NCBI RefSeq assembly: GCF_900142175.1
Contig: NZ_FQZX01000001.1
Coordinates: forward strand, 186,001 to 250,000
From: Maribacter aquivivus
GTDB taxonomy: Bacteria > Bacteroidota > Bacteroidia > Flavobacteriales > Flavobacteriaceae
DNA: 64,000 bases
Direction: 5' to 3'
Position 1 is the first letter of the stretch. Each line of letters opens with the position of its first letter. The notes beneath the pieces are model-generated. The model did not search any database and had not been told where the DNA came from. It saw only the letters and a list, made by a program, of their open reading frames with translations. A program made the translations under genes and the position numbers. Below, piece after piece: positions 32,709 through 42,294 of this stretch.

Positions 32709-32875
32709 AACCCACCCCTGACCCCTCCCGAGAGGGGAACAATTTATAACTGAAAATAAATTTTAGAGATAAAACAGACGAGGCAACTCTTATAAAAACT
32801 AAACTCGCAACACCCCACAAACCCGCAATAAAAAACGCAACTCTCCCCTCTTGGGAGGGGATTAAGAGGTGGGTT
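32709..32875 (+). repeat. G-rich inverted-end repeat element, copy A
   Basis: 167 bases. The left end carries CCCACCCCT...CCCCTCCC and a GAGGGG arm (32709-32742). The right end is its inverted counterpart (32843-32875). The AT-rich middle, including AGATAAAACAGACGA and AAAAACGCAA, is shared with copies D, F and G. The middle has no ORF. It occupies most of the 375-base gap before the amidohydrolase gene. The right end has a broken third G-run. Confidence 0.8.
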
Positions 32876-36191: not shown

Positions 36192-36346
36192 ACCCACCGC
36201 TAGCCCCTCCCAAGAGGGTAACAACTAGCGTCTTCAATTAAAATATATTCTAAGAATAATTTTATGAAAACAGAAGTTTCAACTAACTCTAATTTCGCAA
36301 TCAATAATGTACTTCTCCCCTCTTGGGAGGGGATTAAGGGGTGGGT
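36192..36346 (+). repeat. G-rich inverted-end repeat element, copy B
   Basis: 155 bases. The left end (36192-36224) has two base changes relative to other copies. The right end (36315-36346) is intact and has four G-runs. It is followed by GCTACG and the truncated DUF559 copy. Bases ~36261-36418 recur at ~36481-36638 as a direct duplication with a 220-base offset. Confidence 0.8.
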
Positions 36347-36352
36347 GCTACG

Positions 36353-36448
36353 ATGAGAAAGATTATTCCATACAACCCAAATTTAGTTGAACTCGCTAGA
36401 ACACTAAGAAACAAAACAAGAAGCCCGAAAATCTTGCCCCAACCCTAA
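36353..36448 (+). pseudogene. Truncated DUF559 gene copy
   Basis: The first ~22 codons (MRKIIPYNPNLVELARTLRN) match the intact DUF559 protein downstream with few changes. The homology then stops and the frame runs into unrelated sequence, ending at a TAA at 36446. The break is followed by CCCCAACCCTAAAGGG (36437-36452), a 16-bp sequence found inverted inside copy F. Confidence 0.8.
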
Positions 36449-36534
36449 AGGGTGGATTTTCTATAATAGAGAAAATAACTTTTATGAAAAGAGAAGTTTC
36501 AACTAACAATAATTTCGCAATCAATAATGTACTT

Positions 36535-36566
36535 CTCCCCTCTTGGGAGGGGATTAAGGGGTGGGT
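36535..36566 (+). repeat. Right end of a G-rich repeat, upstream of DUF559
   Basis: Intact right-end sequence with the hairpin CCCCTC-TTGG-GAGGGG and four G-runs. The DUF559 ATG follows six bases later. It is the duplicate of the end at 36315-36346. Confidence 0.85.
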
Positions 36567-36572
36567 CTTACG

Positions 36573-36956
36573 ATGAGAAATATTATTCCATATAATCCAA
36601 AATTAGTTGAACTCGCCAGAACATTAAGAAACAACATGACCCTTGGTGAAATTGCGCTATGGAGAGAGATAAAAGGTAAAAAGCTAGGTCAAAAATTTAA
36701 TAGACAAATTCCTATCGATCAATATATAGTTGATTTTTATTGCAAAGATCTTCAACTCGCAATAGAAGTAGATGGCAGTATTCACTTTAAAGAAGGACAT
36801 GAAGAAAAAGATAAGAAAAGGCAAGCACGCTTAGAATCTCTAGGGGTACATATGCTCAGGTTTTCAGATACCGATGTGAAGAATAATTTGGGGGTTGTTT
36901 TAGAAGAGATTAAAGTAATAATTGAGAAATTAGAACAAACAAGAACCCACCCCTAG
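36573..36956 (+). CDS. DUF559 endonuclease-like protein (PD-(D/E)XK / Vsr-like fold)
   Basis: 127 residues from the ATG at 36573; a GTG at 36561 lies inside the repeat and is less likely. DUF559 proteins have a restriction-endonuclease-like core related to the Vsr mismatch endonuclease. Catalytic positions are visible: Asp54 in YIVDFYC and Glu65-Val-Asp67 in LAIEVDGSIHF, after QKFNRQIPIDQ. The last residues (Thr-His-Pro) and the TAG stop are encoded by the left end of repeat D. The gene begins six bases after a repeat right end. An N-terminal fragment of a sister copy is 220 bases upstream. No methylase is nearby. Confidence 0.88.
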   Translation: MRNIIPYNPKLVELARTLRNNMTLGEIALWREIKGKKLGQKFNRQIPIDQYIVDFYCKDLQLAIEVDGSIHFKEGHEEKDKKRQARLESLGVHMLRFSDTDVKNNLGVVLEEIKVIIEKLEQTRTHP

Positions 36957-37109
36957 CCCCTCCCAAGAGGGGAACAGCTAGTGACTTTAAATAATTTTTT
37001 TAGATAAAACAGACGAAATAGTACTTTTAAAAACGCAATTTCCCAACAACCAAAAACTCGCAACCAAAAACGAAATCCTCCCCTCTTGGGAGGGGATTAA
37101 GGGGTGGGT
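36945..37109 (+). repeat. G-rich inverted-end repeat element, copy D
   Basis: 165 bases with a left end at 36945-36977 and a right end at 37078-37109. The middle contains AGATAAAACAGACGAAATAG and CAACCAAAAACGAAAT, as in copies A, F and G. The DUF559 stop codon lies in its left end. Confidence 0.85.
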
Positions 37110-37151
37110 GCTACGGTGATGAAGATTTCATTGAACATACTAACTCAAAAG

Positions 37152-37185
37152 AACCCACCCCTAGCCCCTCCAAGGAGGGGAACAG
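37152..37185 (+). repeat. Solitary left end of the G-rich repeat, copy E
   Basis: A single left-end sequence with the hairpin changed to CCCCTCCAAGGAGGGG (a perfect palindrome) and no matching right end nearby. It lies 43 bases after copy D. Confidence 0.75.
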
Positions 37186-37267
37186 CCGTTGACTAAAATT
37201 GAATAATTGCAGACCTATACCCTTTACCTCACCCAACACTGGTATCTTGCATATATAAACTACCCTT

Positions 37268-37492
37268 ATGAAAATCAATTTACTTACTTGTGATGCTCAA
37301 AGACCAGATAGAAGAGCGATTGCGAAATGCATTGCAGAATTATCATCTAATGTTAGCGATTCGCTTGCCAATGAACTTACAGATATACTTTTAGAAGGTG
37401 ATGCAGTAGATATTGAAGTAAGCGATAAAAATTCTGGTTCTGCATTAAGGGCTTTGCGAAAGCTGAGTATAGATTATGAGATTATAGAATAA
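37268..37492 (+). CDS. Small protein resembling the L7/L12 C-terminal domain
   Basis: 74 residues, acidic, with no signal peptide. The predicted order of helices and strands and the pattern SLANELTDILLEGDAVDIEV...ALRALRKLSIDYEII resemble the C-terminal domain of ribosomal protein bL12, though key glycines are missing. I cannot name a family. It sits inside the repeat-rich stretch, ~700 bases before a ribosome-hibernation gene. The L12-like call is a weak structural inference. Confidence 0.6.
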   Translation: MKINLLTCDAQRPDRRAIAKCIAELSSNVSDSLANELTDILLEGDAVDIEVSDKNSGSALRALRKLSIDYEIIE

Positions 37493-37539
37493 GGGGTTCT
37501 ACATTCAGCTCTTGTTAGCTTGTTCGTTATAAGTACTCT

Positions 37540-37662
37540 TGTCACTTCGAGTGAACTACGAGGTACGAGGAGTTTGTATCGAGAAACATTCGTGTACCAA
37601 AGGGTTCTCGATACAATTTTAAGTTTCCATTGCATTATAACTTAAAACCACTCGAACTGACA
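37540..37662. repeat. TCGAGTG-type inverted repeat element, copy 1 (complete)
   Basis: 123 bases bounded by TGTCACTTCGAGTG and CACTCGAACTGACA, which are inverted repeats with one mismatch. An inner pair GTATCGAGAA/TTCTCGATAC surrounds the centre. No ORF. With repeats at 37711-38008 it fills the 712-base stretch between the small genes at 37268 and 38205. Confidence 0.75.
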
Positions 37663-37710
37663 ATGCGTATTCAATTCAATAAATGTTAGCCCTTTCGTTC
37701 TAATTAACAT

Positions 37711-37760
37711 TGTCACTTCGAGTGAATTTTCGAAGAATGAGAAAATTTGTATCGAGAACT
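37711..37760. repeat. TCGAGTG-type repeat, half copy 2
   Basis: Contains TGTCACTTCGAGTG and the inner GTATCGAGAACTCG but lacks the right half. It is joined to a G-rich element (copy F) by a 38-base linker, CACCATCTCCCAACTTGCC and flanks, that also occurs at 39579-39616. Confidence 0.7.
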
Positions 37761-37798
37761 CGTTTGTCACCATCTCCCAACTTGCCAAAACCCAAAAT

Positions 37799-38008
37799 AC
37801 CCACCCCTAGCCCCTCCCAAGAGGGGAACAGACCGTGACTGTGATTAAGCTTATTAGAGTAAGACCACACAACAGCACCAAACTGCGCGCGGGCGCCCTT
37901 TAGGGTTGGGGTGAGCGGGGCATTGCAAAAACGCTACTTCTCAGAAACCAAAAAACCCACAACCAAAAACGAAATTCTCCCCTCTTGGGAGGGGATTAAG
38001 GGGTGGGT
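37799..38008 (+). repeat. G-rich inverted-end repeat element, copy F
   Basis: 210 bases with left end 37799-37831 and right end 37977-38008, both with four G- or C-runs. It is longer than other copies because of an extra GC-rich segment containing CCCTTTAGGGTTGGGG (37896-37911), which is the inverse of the sequence after the broken DUF559 gene. The rest of the middle matches copy G closely. Confidence 0.8.
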
Positions 38009-38204
38009 GCTACGATACTGAAGATTTCATTAAACCCCCTCACCAATTTCTTTACAAAATTATTCCACTAAAAGCTGTGAAGGAATTAATAGTATCTATC
38101 CCTAAACAGTACCATCTCAGTATAACTTCTTGAGTTTAAGATAGTATTGGTAAAGTTCAAGTATTAAAGCTGTATAATATGAATGAACAATTAAAACAAT
38201 AGAC

Positions 38205-38348
38205 ATGGGAATGATTAAGGATAGAAAGAAATTCAATAGAACAAAAGAGCAAACCAATCCAACGAATCCGACCGGTAATACCAATCAGCTGAACAAAGAG
38301 TACAACATTGATAAGCCGACCATTAAAAAACAACAAAAAGATAAATGA
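38205..38348 (+). CDS. Small Lys/Asn-rich protein
   Basis: 47 residues, hydrophilic, rich in Lys, Asn and Gln with a PTNPTGNTNQLNKEYN stretch. It has no membrane segment and no family I recognise. It lies 67 bases upstream of a second small gene, then the hibernation-factor gene, all on the same strand. It may be a stress-induced disordered protein. The call rests on an intact frame and operon position. Confidence 0.5.
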   Translation: MGMIKDRKKFNRTKEQTNPTNPTGNTNQLNKEYNIDKPTIKKQQKDK

Positions 38349-38415
38349 TGTTGGTTATATAAAAGAGCTATAACAATCCCTTTTAAAAAATATAATAAGA
38401 TTAAAATCAGAAGAA

Positions 38416-38616
38416 ATGGAATCACAAAATGATCTTAATACTAATATTCGATTAACAACCATAAAAATACAGGAGGAACATCCAGAACTGGTTAAATACA
38501 TAAATGAAATACCACGAATCTTTTTTAAAGATGAAGAAGAAGTAAATAACAAAGCGCTAAAAGGATATTTAGATTCCCTAAATATGATATTAGAAACCTA
38601 TTCAGAAAAACACTAA
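38416..38616 (+). CDS. Small helical hypothetical protein
   Basis: 66 residues, mostly helical and acidic, with IKIQEEHPELVKYINEIPR and NNKALKGYLDSLNMILETY. Similar small proteins occur near stress genes in flavobacteria, but I know no function. It ends 12 bases before the HPF/RaiA-like gene and is very likely cotranscribed with it. Confidence 0.7.
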   Translation: MESQNDLNTNIRLTTIKIQEEHPELVKYINEIPRIFFKDEEEVNNKALKGYLDSLNMILETYSEKH

Positions 38617-38628
38617 AAAACTATACAT

Positions 38629-38949
38629 ATGACAATCCAGATAAATACAGACAAAACCATTAATGGAGAAAAAAGAAATGCCGATTTTTTTTCTTCTCAG
38701 ATTGAAGAGGCATTACAAAGGTTTGAGTCTCACATTACCAGAGTAGAGGTACATTTAAAAGATGAGAATGGAAAAAAAGACGGATTCAATGATATCTCGT
38801 GTCTGCTAGAAGCTAGAATCGAGGGCAGAAACCCCATTGCGGTTTCTAATCAAGCAGATACTATGGATCAAGCCGTTAAAGGTGCTATTGATAAAATAAA
38901 AACTGCTATAGAAAGTATTCTTGGTAAAATTCAAAAACAAAATCATTAG
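38629..38949 (+). CDS. HPF/RaiA-family ribosome-associated protein
   Basis: 106 residues matching the short hibernation-promoting factor fold (beta-alpha-beta-beta-beta-alpha): MTIQINTDKTING, IEEALQRFESHITRVEVHLKDENG, CLLEARIEGRNPIAV and TMDQAVKGAIDKIKTAIES. Such proteins bind the 30S decoding region and shut down translation in stationary phase or stress. This copy lacks the usual Lys/Arg-rich tail length and could be a secondary, stress-specific form. Two small genes precede it and one follows after two bases. Confidence 0.88.
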   Translation: MTIQINTDKTINGEKRNADFFSSQIEEALQRFESHITRVEVHLKDENGKKDGFNDISCLLEARIEGRNPIAVSNQADTMDQAVKGAIDKIKTAIESILGKIQKQNH

Positions 38950-38951
38950 AT

Positions 38952-39332
38952 ATGAAAGCAAAAAGTAATTTAGGTATTTGGATGGACCACTCCATCGCTA
39001 ATTTGATTGATATCGATGCAAGAAAAGAATGCGGATCTATTGCATCTAATTTTACATCAGACACAAAGGAAGATGCATTGAATAAGAGCGAAAATCTTAT
39101 GCATAATAAAAGACAGCAAATGAATGAAAAATTCTATGACACAATTGGAGCTCAAATTTTAAAATATAACCACGTGCTGCTATTTGGACCAACAAACGCA
39201 AAAGTAGAATTGCACAATTATTTGAATAAAGATTCACATTTTAAGAATATTAAGATTGATGTAGTATCATCAGACAACATTACAGATAATGAACAAGTAG
39301 CTTTTGTGAAAAATCATTTTGCTAAAGTTTAG
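38952..39332 (+). CDS. Small protein resembling eRF1-like / translational-machinery proteins
   Basis: 126 residues. It opens with LGIWMDHSIANLIDI and has YNHVLLFGPTNAKVELHNYL and a C-terminal NEQVAFVKNHF. This FGP-x-xAK-x-EL pattern is like the second domain of bacterial eRF1-like (host attachment / translational machinery) proteins. It starts two bases after the HPF-like gene, so the two are probably made together. A ribosome-related role is inferred from this pairing and remains to be shown. Confidence 0.75.
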   Translation: MKAKSNLGIWMDHSIANLIDIDARKECGSIASNFTSDTKEDALNKSENLMHNKRQQMNEKFYDTIGAQILKYNHVLLFGPTNAKVELHNYLNKDSHFKNIKIDVVSSDNITDNEQVAFVKNHFAKV

Positions 39333-39384
39333 AATTCTATTAGAGCAATAGGTATTAGGTTAATATGATGCCGCTAAGTGCTGT

Positions 39385-39474
39385 TGTTACTTGGAGTGAA
39401 TTATATCGAGAACAGCTTTGGTGCACCAAAGCTGTTCTCGATACATTTTCTTTCAGAAAACACTCGAACTGACA
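39385..39474. repeat. TCGAGTG-type repeat, copy 3, with a perfect 40-bp palindrome
   Basis: 90 bases bounded by TGTTACTTGGAGTG and CACTCGAACTGACA. Its centre (39404-39443) is a perfect palindrome of two 20-base arms, the left being TATCGAGAACAGCTTTGGTG. With copies 4 and G it fills most of the gap between 39332 and 39780. Confidence 0.85.
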
Positions 39475-39520
39475 GACGTTTATATTAAGCTCGCGTTAGC
39501 TTGTTCGTTATATGTACCAT

Positions 39521-39578
39521 TGTCACTTCGAGTGTTTTATAGATGAGCAGAGCGGTTCTAAAAAATGTATCGAGAACT
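39521..39578. repeat. TCGAGTG-type repeat, half copy 4
   Basis: Starts with TGTCACTTCGAGTG and ends with TGTATCGAGAACTCG; no right half. Like half copy 2 it is joined to a G-rich element by the CACCATCTCCCAACTTGCC linker. Confidence 0.7.
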
Positions 39579-39616
39579 CGCTTGTCACCATCTCCCAACT
39601 TGCCAAAACCCAAAAT

Positions 39617-39780
39617 ACCCACCCTAGCCCCTCCCAAGAGGGGAACAGACCGTGACTGTCATTTAGCTTTTTAGATACATTAGAAGAAATAGTAGTTGTA
39701 GAAACAGAAGCTCTAACAACCAAAAAACCCACAACCAAAAACGAAAATCTCCCCTCTTGGGAGGGGATTAAGGGGTGGGT
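39617..39780 (+). repeat. G-rich inverted-end repeat element, copy G
   Basis: 164 bases with left end 39617-39648 (one C missing) and right end 39749-39780. Both ends keep four C- or G-runs. The middle matches copy F apart from the GC-rich segment present only there. Confidence 0.85.
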
Positions 39781-40055: not shown

Positions 40056-41438
40056 ATGAGAATTACAAAATTTGAAGCAGAAGGCGTAAACGGATACTTG
40101 CGCTTCAATATCGACTTCAACGAATCATTAACTTTTCTGATAGGAATAAATGGTTCGGGTAAAACAACTGCTATAAAATTGATATTAGGTTTGCTTAGTC
40201 CAAGCTGGATAAATCTAACTCAGATAAAATATGAATATGCTCAGGTCGAATGTGAAATCAATGATGAATTAATAAGGATTAAATCTGACTTTAATGATAA
40301 AGAAAAAATAAAGCTCAGTATTTCTTATCCTAATACAAAGAAAAAAACCATTACAAGTACAGTAAGAGTACAAGAATTGCCTAATATTCAAATGAGTGAT
40401 TATGGCAGGATGGAGTATCGTCAAATTATGAGTCGATTTTCTCGATACGAATCTCACTTTATTGAATTAGATGCAGTAAAAAAGATAAAAGAAATTAGTA
40501 CACCTGTATTTTTAGGGTTGGATAGACGTATTTATGAAGGTGGTGAAATTGACCTATTAAGTATTGACTCTTTTATGCAAAAAAGAGACTTTACAACTGA
40601 CATTAAAGGTAATTTGTATGAGAGCTTATTAGAAATAGAATCTTTAATAAAAACGAATTTTATTGAATATTCTCAAAAACAAGCATCCATCAGTGCTTCC
40701 TTAAAGAATAAAATCATTTATTCTTCATTTGATATAATACAAGGAAATGAAAATTTTGGTTTTAACACTAAAACAGATGTTGATATAGAATCAAGGAAAA
40801 AACGAATTATTGAAGCATCAAAAAACTTTGAAATTCCTGATTTAGAGTCAAAAATTATTGATTATTTCAATGAATTGAGTAAAATTCAAAAATCACTTCA
40901 AAAAGAGCAAGATAAAAAAGGGAAAGACAAGGAAACAAGTCAACAATTTTTAAAAGTTTTAGGACAATGGTTTATTAATAATCCTCAACTTGAGAGAATT
41001 GATAATATTATTTCACTTTACGAAAATGCTCAAACAGAGATTGAATTAAGCTATAAGGAGTTTATAAAATTTGAGTCTTTGGCCAATCTATACTTTGAGG
41101 AAAACAATAAGAAACTTACTATTAAAAAGAATGGGGAGATTTCAATAAAACTACCCACTGATAATACAACAGGAATTTTTAAACTTTCGTCAGGTGAAAA
41201 ACAGATAATTGTAATGCTTGCCCAATTAATTTTCGGAAAGAAGAGACAAATATTTATAATCGATGAACCAGAATTAAGTCTTCATCTAGGATGGCAAGAG
41301 TTATTCGTTAATTCTCTCTTAGAAGCAAGTCCTAATACTCAATTCATAATGGCGACACATTCACCAACCATTATTGGAAAAATAGAAAACCAACTGTATT
41401 GCCAAGATTTGTCGCAATCAATGACAAATCGAGGATAA
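40056..41438 (+). CDS. AAA/ABC-type ATPase, PARIS AriA-like
   Basis: 460 residues. Walker A GINGSGKT at 30-37, ABC-like signature FKLSSGEKQIIVMLAQL, Walker B IFIIDEPELSLH (Asp403-Glu404) and switch His435 in MATHSPTIIG. A helical and coiled-coil insertion (~150-340) separates them, as in SMC-like and OLD-like ATPases. One base downstream starts a DUF4435 gene. An AAA ATPase paired with DUF4435 is the arrangement of the PARIS anti-phage system (AriA/AriB). Family and pairing are seen; defence is inferred. Confidence 0.88.
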   Translation: MRITKFEAEGVNGYLRFNIDFNESLTFLIGINGSGKTTAIKLILGLLSPSWINLTQIKYEYAQVECEINDELIRIKSDFNDKEKIKLSISYPNTKKKTITSTVRVQELPNIQMSDYGRMEYRQIMSRFSRYESHFIELDAVKKIKEISTPVFLGLDRRIYEGGEIDLLSIDSFMQKRDFTTDIKGNLYESLLEIESLIKTNFIEYSQKQASISASLKNKIIYSSFDIIQGNENFGFNTKTDVDIESRKKRIIEASKNFEIPDLESKIIDYFNELSKIQKSLQKEQDKKGKDKETSQQFLKVLGQWFINNPQLERIDNIISLYENAQTEIELSYKEFIKFESLANLYFEENNKKLTIKKNGEISIKLPTDNTTGIFKLSSGEKQIIVMLAQLIFGKKRQIFIIDEPELSLHLGWQELFVNSLLEASPNTQFIMATHSPTIIGKIENQLYCQDLSQSMTNRG

Positions 41439-41439
41439 T

Positions 41440-42294
41440 ATGCTGAAATTTAAAGATTTTGTTTTACCAAACGTTGGCTTGTTTTTTAGGTATAAAAATA
41501 CAGTAGATGTTTTTATAGAAGACTCTTATGATGATGAATTTTATCTAACATTAGTCAATAGAGTTTTCGAAAAAACTGGACATAAAATAAACAAGTTAAT
41601 TTCTTTAGGTTGCAAGAATAATGTTTTAGCAGCTTGTCAATCCGACCAAGTAAAAAGAGATGTTTTGCGAGTTTATATTGTAGACGGTGACCTTGAATTA
41701 ATTACAGATACTAATGAAAAAACATTAAAACATTTGTTTGTACTTGAAAAATATTGCATCGAAAATTATTTAATACATAAAGAAAGTATAATCGAGATTA
41801 TTCACGATTATCTAATTATAGATAGAGATAAAATTGAAAAACAATTAAGTTTTGAAAATTGGCTGAAAGGTTTGTCTAAAGATTTAATAGATTTATTTCT
41901 ACATTACTCTATTTCAAAAGAAGTATGTCCAACAATTCCAACAATCTCTTTAGGTGTTGGAAATCTTTGTGAACCAATAAAAAGAATACCTGTTTTAAAT
42001 GAAGATAAGTGCAATAAACGAATTGCAGATATAAAAAAAGAAATTCTCAAATCTATCTCAGCCGAAGAGTACAATGACAAAATATATGAGCTAAGAGAGA
42101 AATGGCCGTACAATATGGAAACAATGCTCAAAATTGTTTCTGGGAAAGATTACATTTTACCTTTATTAGAATTTAGATTTCATAAGTTTAAGTCAACGAA
42201 TTCAATAATTATGAGACGAGAAACCTTAAGATTAAGATTAGCTAAATTATGTGATGTTTCTGAATTAAAGAAAATAGCGGGAAAAATAGCGTAA
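41440..42294 (+). CDS. DUF4435 (TOPRIM-like) protein, PARIS AriB-like
   Basis: 284 residues. The N-terminal half has DUF4435 features: VDVFIEDSYDDEFYL with Glu27, ISLGCKNNV, and LRVYIVDGDLELI whose Asp-x-Asp fits the second TOPRIM-like motif, then LEKYCIENYLI. In PARIS, AriB is a toxic nuclease released from AriA when a phage anti-restriction protein is sensed. It follows the ATPase gene after one base. The C-terminal ~130 residues are helical and diverse, as expected for a fast-evolving effector. Confidence 0.85.
   Translation: MLKFKDFVLPNVGLFFRYKNTVDVFIEDSYDDEFYLTLVNRVFEKTGHKINKLISLGCKNNVLAACQSDQVKRDVLRVYIVDGDLELITDTNEKTLKHLFVLEKYCIENYLIHKESIIEIIHDYLIIDRDKIEKQLSFENWLKGLSKDLIDLFLHYSISKEVCPTIPTISLGVGNLCEPIKRIPVLNEDKCNKRIADIKKEILKSISAEEYNDKIYELREKWPYNMETMLKIVSGKDYILPLLEFRFHKFKSTNSIIMRRETLRLRLAKLCDVSELKKIAGKIA

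Follow-up and report, generated by a model that had tools for sequence, protein, structure and literature searches.

Several described systems resemble the locus considered here. REPINs are inverted doublets of repetitive extragenic palindromic (REP) sequences which are tied to REP-associated tyrosine transposases (RAYTs) (PMC3116915), and a 2013 survey found that most REPs are of the GTAG or CGTC type, of which the CGTC type is apparently without a dedicated transposase (PMC3733652). Rickettsia palindromic elements (RPEs) are about 150 bp long and insert in frame in genes (PMC10969869), and the classes of homing endonucleases, including free-standing homing genes, are located in introns or between conserved genes (PMC6083498). 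The locus in question is an array of hairpin-bearing inverted ends around a gene for a small DUF559 nuclease in Maribacter aquivivus, and lies in a stretch of 64,000 nucleotides (the window, G000:C1:186001-250000, on contig NZ_FQZX01000001.1) of a 4.58 Mb genome (G000). It is probably a selfish mobile element that has a nuclease as its only enzyme, together with the debris of that element, which would spread by homing-like repair started by the nuclease and give rise to gene-less, REPIN-like derivatives. Sequence comparison establishes as the recurrent unit a lone DUF559 gene between two inverted ends that contain a hairpin each, and in other phyla the same plan returns with differing end sequences and is accompanied by gene-less copies and tandem arrays.

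The region at about 32.7-39.8 kb of the window contains six left and six right ends, which make up five full copies, with a lone left end and an extra right end besides (Table 1), all of which a sequence-only reading of this DNA had already described. A left end is built of a head, ACCCACCCCTAG, followed by the hairpin CCCCTC-CCAA-GAGGGG, and a right end is the inverse, consisting of the hairpin, a linker ATTA and the head AGGGGTGGGT; the coordinates agree with inverted ends of about 30 bp that each hold their own hairpin. The position given for the gene is likewise correct: the ATG is at 36573, 6 nt downstream of a right end, and a left end contains the TAG stop (36954-36956). A conserved AT-rich middle had also been ascribed to the copies, but the middles are not uniform, as copy F (37799-38008) and the stretch at 36414-36474 hold pieces of a second type of element. 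The core motif of the ends, CCCCTCCNNNGAGGGGA, has 20 matches in the genome, of which 11 lie within 10 kb of the DUF559 gene, and a reversed control pattern has none. As single-stranded DNA, copy D folds with a z-score of -5.2, and none of 200 shuffles was equally stable; together with the motif and control counts this rules out a chance origin of the ends. Intrinsic terminators are ruled out because hairpin and head occur in inverted orientation on either side of the gene and are not followed by any visible T run in the window. An Rfam scan of the window gave a single match, which is a tRNA.

Table 1. Features of the array in the window, and loci of other genomes that carry the DUF559 domain in frame within a host gene
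Feature	Position or loci	Strand	Remarks
Left ends	32710-32740, 36192-36222, 36945-36975, 37153-37183, 37799-37829, 39617-39646		
Right ends	32844-32874, 36316-36346, 36536-36566, 37079-37109, 37978-38008, 39750-39780		
Copy A	32710-32874	+	left end, AT-rich middle, right end; gene-less
Copy B	36192-36346	+	left end, middle, right end; directly 3' of serine hydrolase gene
Truncated 5' piece of a second type-1 DUF559 gene	36353-36414	+	about 20 codons; from translation; inside the 92.5% duplication
Relic left end of type-2 DUF559 element	36414-36474	+	93% over 61 nt to G017's type-2 element at this locus
Right end immediately 5' of DUF559 gene	36536-36566	+	hairpin, ATTA, head AGGGGTGGGT
DUF559 (YcjD-type, Vsr-like fold) nuclease gene	36573-36956	+	127 aa; PF04480, predicted fold, dN/dS
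Left end giving the DUF559 stop codon	36945-36975	+	head ACCCACCCCTAG, hairpin CCCCTCCCAAGAGGGG
Copy D	36945-37109	+	left end, middle, right end; after the DUF559 gene
Lone left end E	37153-37183	+	
Copy F	37799-38008	+	middle holds relic type-2 right end (86% over 140 nt to G017)
Copy G	39617-39780	+	left end, middle, right end
In-frame DUF559, LeuRS	L067, L070, L072, L179, L182		
In-frame DUF559, MetH	L199, L205		
In-frame DUF559, HsdR	L183, L185		
In-frame DUF559, methylases	L177, L178, L193		

The window protein matches the Pfam family PF04480 with 105.7 bits (cut-off 20.6) over the frame 36561-36956 and PF18741 below the cut-off; the Pfam scan gave these two profiles only, so that the Vsr family profile PF03852 is unmatched. 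Its predicted structure (pLDDT 88) finds its closest folds, in this order, in 3hrl, which is a Neisseria DUF559 protein, in the homing endonuclease I-Bth0305I and in Vsr. The model has the nuclease fold of the EDxHD homing endonucleases, and as predicted it stands nearer to I-Bth0305I than to Vsr. Residues D54 and E65 of the protein are invariant and are candidates for its active site. For the Vsr-like EDxHD enzymes such as I-Bth0305I and for free-standing homing genes, the accessible text of the homing review mentions neither hairpin ends nor gene-less derivatives (PMC6083498), which sets the present locus apart from them. The family is large, with 1638 homologues in a single search. The ratio of nonsynonymous to synonymous substitution rates (dN/dS) of the window gene is 0.05-0.12 against six congeneric copies, and because the ratio is low in pairs of solo genes (0.05-0.22), in pairs of domains within leucyl-tRNA synthetase (LeuRS; 0.07-0.11) and in one RecG pair (0.14), the DUF559 domain is taken to be kept under purifying selection.

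Within the genus the ends follow the gene. A DUF559 gene was counted as solo, that is small, if it has a nearly complete domain match and an open frame no longer than about 165 aa, which places G029 (256 aa) and G025 (a frame of 210 aa that contains a stop and another of 299 aa) among the non-solo genomes and G010 and G035, with one in-gene stop each, among the solo ones. The end motif is present in 17 of the 19 congeneric genomes with a solo gene and in one of the 16 without it (Fisher p = 6.4e-7, a value that ignores shared ancestry), the sole motif-positive genome of the latter group being G005 with a single match; if G025 and G029 are reclassed as solo the counts become 17/21 and 1/14. In 24 genomes outside the genus the same search found one or two matches in four. 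These counts support the view that the ends belong with the DUF559 gene, and the sequence-only reading had named ends that occur freely in genomes lacking the gene as an outcome that would speak against it, which in any strong form is not what is found. Across the 11 solo-bearing genomes with complete match lists, 93 of 137 motif matches are located within 10 kb of the gene, and in places, for instance in G016, the ends form tandem arrays with a step near 208 nt. Because of this local clustering the spread is unlike that of classic REPINs, and the REPIN parallel that had been drawn from the sequence is good for the layout and not, in Maribacter, for the distribution.

A second line of evidence comes from the replacement of one nuclease by another at the same site. 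At the same place 3' of the serine hydrolase gene, G017 and G011 carry a different, type-2 DUF559 gene (frames of 162 and 152 aa) with a separate set of ends based on CCCCAACCCTAAAGGGTG. The core motif of type 2, searched for as an exact match, is present in five of 60 genomes, namely G000, G011, G017 and G018, where it sits at the window's locus, and G052, which is outside the genus. Since these relatives carry type 2 and the window keeps relics of both of its ends, the left one as listed in Table 1 and the right one at 37876-38014 (86% over 140 nt against G017), two nuclease types have occupied this site, and the ends evidently switch along with the type of nuclease. The extra right end of the array is due to a partial duplication of about 160 nt (36255-36414 and 36474-36634, 92.5% identity) which is absent from M. 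stanieri (L023) and from G004.

Inverted flanks around DUF559 genes are also found far beyond Maribacter. At each locus the left flank was aligned to the reverse-complemented right flank, equally shaped windows of that locus served as controls, and a score of at least 26, which is reached by 1.4-6.1% of background windows, was taken as positive. Close relatives of the window gene in flavobacteria are positive at 20 of 25 loci, so the second outcome named in advance as adverse, a subfamily that normally occurs without the repeats, is not realised in strong form. Other genomes are positive at 14 of 19 loci, three of the 19 being from Bacteroidota; of the 16 outside this phylum 12 are positive, including members of Zixibacteria, Cloacimonadota, Nitrospirota, Chloroflexota, Omnitrophota and Clostridia. 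A collection of plasmids and phages, from which 16 of 37 matches were hand-picked for spread, gave nine positives (two from Sinorhizobium, one each from Sphingobium, Sphingomonas, Novosphingobium and Deinococcus, and three from cyanobacteria), and its one phage record was negative. A stem of at least five pairs is present in the matching arm of 19, 12 and 8 positives of the three sets, respectively. The stem sequences vary between phyla and a hairpin beside a G/C-rich head recurs. In a 3.7-Mb record of S. meliloti the motif CCCTCACCCTNACCCTCTCC has 28 matches, with none for the control, and three pairs of matches are 106 nt apart; the motif is present in two of six records searched.

An even sample of Bacteroidota provides the comparison with Vsr. 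PF04480 is matched in 109 of its 198 genomes, partly through weak cross-matches to Vsr genes, and among the 30 best-scoring DUF559 loci 16 reach a score of at least 26 (16/25 of the testable ones), as against none of the 30 best true Vsr loci (0/29 testable). The testable loci are those that remain once the ones misplaced at contig edges are dropped (L187, L191, L195, L202 and L204 for DUF559, L231 for Vsr). Thirteen of the 30 DUF559 loci score at a level that at most 1% of their own controls reach, and two of the 16 positives, L178 and L180, are unexceptional compared with their own locus. Long frames account for 11 of the 30 loci, eight of which reach the threshold. In a separate test of the window's relatives, from which L068 and L069 were excluded as too short, 15 of 19 small-frame loci and one of six long-frame loci score at least 26.

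Elsewhere the gene and its ends interrupt operons and genes. They are located between paaD and paaZ in Deinococcus, separate two transhydrogenase genes in Sphingomonas and lie inside a carboxylase cluster in Sphingobium. A site in RecG after the residues WHK is occupied in five of 30 loci read (one of them seen in part), scarred in two and empty in 23, and the occupied genes, the scarred genes and six of the empty ones form a single clade of 13. The RecG genes L144 (G030) and L147 (G005) have a short in-frame scar similar to the insert's right end, such as a loss of the element might leave. One loop of LeuRS is occupied in five of 29 loci read, by two DUF559 lineages whose separation in the tree has moderate support (91/86), and the DUF559 domains cluster by host gene. 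Further in-frame hosts are MetH (twice), HsdR (twice), HsdM and methylases, and one domain is found at the end of a PurQ/PurL-type amidotransferase; restriction-modification genes give the impression of being frequent among these hosts. Many of the in-frame domains are bordered by proline/glycine-rich linkers which are encoded by palindromes. The RecG and LeuRS relatives are patchily present at a fixed site in a conserved gene, as homing would have it, and related elements lie in frame within coding genes, as RPEs do; neither is true of the window copy. The likeness to RPEs lies in palindromic DNA placed in frame inside coding genes, and the difference is that full elements here carry a nuclease domain under purifying selection, a word, nuclease, that is absent from the accessible text of the RPE review (PMC10969869). 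The synonymous divergence (dS) of the insert is 0.129 in a RecG pair, against 0.515 for the host gene, and 0.277 in a LeuRS pair, against 0.415; this contrast gives weak support to a transfer of the insert independent of its host gene. The repeat-guarding role that had been considered for the nuclease is disfavoured, as the in-frame insertion of its relatives into essential genes fits a selfish nuclease element better.

In the proposed mechanism the nuclease would recognise an end or target of its own type and introduce a nick or break, and host repair would then copy the element into the cut site by homing-like gene conversion. Ends that lie side by side could lead to local multiplication, with arrays arising by repeated copying or by unequal exchange among neighbours. 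The hairpin ends would mark the edges of the element, might protect it from cutting itself and could allow gene-less copies to be carried in trans. Insertions within genes would be expected to persist only where the frame is kept and the loop is tolerant.

A number of observations weigh against a selfish nuclease element of this kind. G007 and G034 have small DUF559 genes and no match to the end motif, and the one G007 gene that was flank-tested failed. At the window's locus G015 retains a decayed left-middle-right copy without a solo gene, which is expected of a relic and equally of ends that are independent of the gene. A further array in the window's genome (C2:745147-745754, L174) consists of three tandem units with the same ends and a different middle and spacer; it has nothing but the ends in common with the main array, and its contig gave no DUF559 match. 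Inverted flanks were not detectable at 9 of 25 testable Bacteroidota, 5 of 25 flavobacterial, 5 of 19 other and 7 of 16 plasmid or phage loci, and they were not found by the flank test at E. coli ycjD. Some of the loci without inverted ends may be immobile or domesticated copies, others may have decayed ends or genes that never had any. YcjD and other solo PF04480 nucleases belong to the same family, and E. coli ycjD, a gene that megablast detects in 3365 of 5426 genomes, differs in its fixed place between sapF and fabI and could be an immobile copy or one adopted by the host. The DUF559 gene of Neisseria gonorrhoeae has hairpin repeats on both sides, but in the same direction, and is negative in the flank test. 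Control windows in the test of the window's relatives also reached the threshold in 15 of 171 cases, and because of this and of the single positive among the six long frames the paired ends assigned to the RecG and LeuRS inserts of Maribacter were read by eye.

The same holds for several properties of the element itself. The best match of the protein in a library of defence systems is a methyl-directed restriction enzyme (E 6e-8), which ranks above the homing endonuclease profile. Heads point towards the gene in Maribacter and S. meliloti and away from it in Deinococcus and RecG, which makes the true edges of the element ambiguous, and the remaining pairs of insert and host dS are saturated or only mildly lower for the insert. 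The comparison of empty and occupied sites that the sequence-only reading had suggested yielded no clean pair at three sites with dispersed copies (the C2:745147 array, the C1:53093 site and the intergenic site of copy A, which differs in the relatives L030, L032 and L033): the flanks have diverged or differ, and a target duplication is unreadable. Neither a target duplication nor an exact junction nor a recent insertion was found at the compared sites, which are too diverged.

An alternative that keeps the same nuclease, and which is considered unlikely, is a single-strand route of the kind proposed for IS200/IS605 and TnpA-REP, in which DUF559 would nick the exposed hairpin ends and the strand thus excised would be inserted at another place. 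In its favour are the occurrence of gene-less doublets and arrays and that of a hairpin in the matching arm at 39 of 43 positive loci despite phylum-specific stem sequences, but the grouping of the domains by host gene in the tree resembles the outcome of homing or of vertical descent. The fold family cuts DNA and is not known for any joining chemistry.

The layout of the locus shares with REPIN/RAYT systems an inverted pair of palindromes round a spacer, which can be folded into one long hairpin, an enzyme gene flanked by the same palindromes, and gene-less copies. It differs in that the enzyme is a DUF559 nuclease and not a HUH transposase, and in that the Maribacter ends are mostly near the gene, and partly in arrays, and not dispersed. 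No Y1 domain of an adjacent HUH transposase was found in the neighbours scanned, which are part of the nearby open reading frames, and no search for RAYTs was made in the rest of the genome. A true REPIN-type system, in which the palindrome pairs would be moved as single-stranded DNA by a RAYT/HUH transposase encoded elsewhere and DUF559 would be a passenger tending to sit in the arrays, could draw on the inverted doublet with its spacer and strong single-strand fold, and on the dispersed doublets of constant spacing in the one S. meliloti record. It is nonetheless improbable, as the occurrence of the ends in the genus follows that of the DUF559 gene, a different nuclease type at one site comes with different ends, and the gene between the flanking ends is DUF559. 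The heads beside the stem are ACCCACCCCTAG and AGGGGTGGGT, and the GTAG or CGTC tag of most REPs (PMC3733652) is not seen.

Least credible is a nuclease that serves its host in Vsr-like mismatch repair, methylation-linked restriction or the removal of hairpins, with the hairpins as terminators or policed structures, for which one could cite, from accessible text, the tie of Caulobacter VsrA to cytosine methylation (PMC12907096) and the conservation of E. coli ycjD, without such ends, in phylogroups A, B1 and C (PMC12817139), besides the restriction enzyme profile match, but patchy presence, insertions in operons and in frame, scars and replacement at one site fit a mobile element, and no testable Vsr locus has flanking inverted ends.

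With the selfish nuclease element as the preferred explanation, a wider generalisation can be put forward, if only tentatively. DUF559 genes with hairpin ends could form a pan-bacterial mobile class whose sole requirement is a small PD-(D/E)XK-like nuclease. Such elements would give rise to GC-rich repeats of head and hairpin in many phyla, enter essential genes in frame and provide the mobilising enzyme for those palindromic repeats that are at present without one. If true, this would assign an owner to a widely distributed class of GC-rich palindromic repeats and a biological role to a large family still named as a domain of unknown function, and would show a lone nuclease gene between hairpin ends to be capable of acting as a mobile element, with relatives inside LeuRS, RecG and MetH. 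The ends described here are not CGTC repeats, and a nuclease-based answer for such transposase-less orphans is now testable. Where a protein is annotated with an internal DUF559 domain, it may owe this domain to an insertion. Literature searches, conducted mostly at listing level and with poor coverage of subscription papers, found no title or abstract start that pairs DUF559 or YcjD with palindromic repeats, and the accessible text of a 2025 survey of REPs contains no word beginning with 'nuclease' (PMC12306157).

Two further features adjoin the array. A second repeat family with inverted arms (GTCACTTCGAGTG ... TATCGAGAAC) is located at 37500-37770 and 39399-39600 of the window, and TERSRS-type peptides that occur in frame in the LeuRS of some relatives might derive from repeats of the GTCACTTCGAGTG/TATCGAGAAC type. 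Directly behind the array, at 40056-42294, lies a PARIS-like defence pair composed of an AriA-type AAA_15 ATPase and an AriB-type DUF4435 protein. The sequence at the place of this pair is different in G017 and G011, and the array may therefore border a variable spot.

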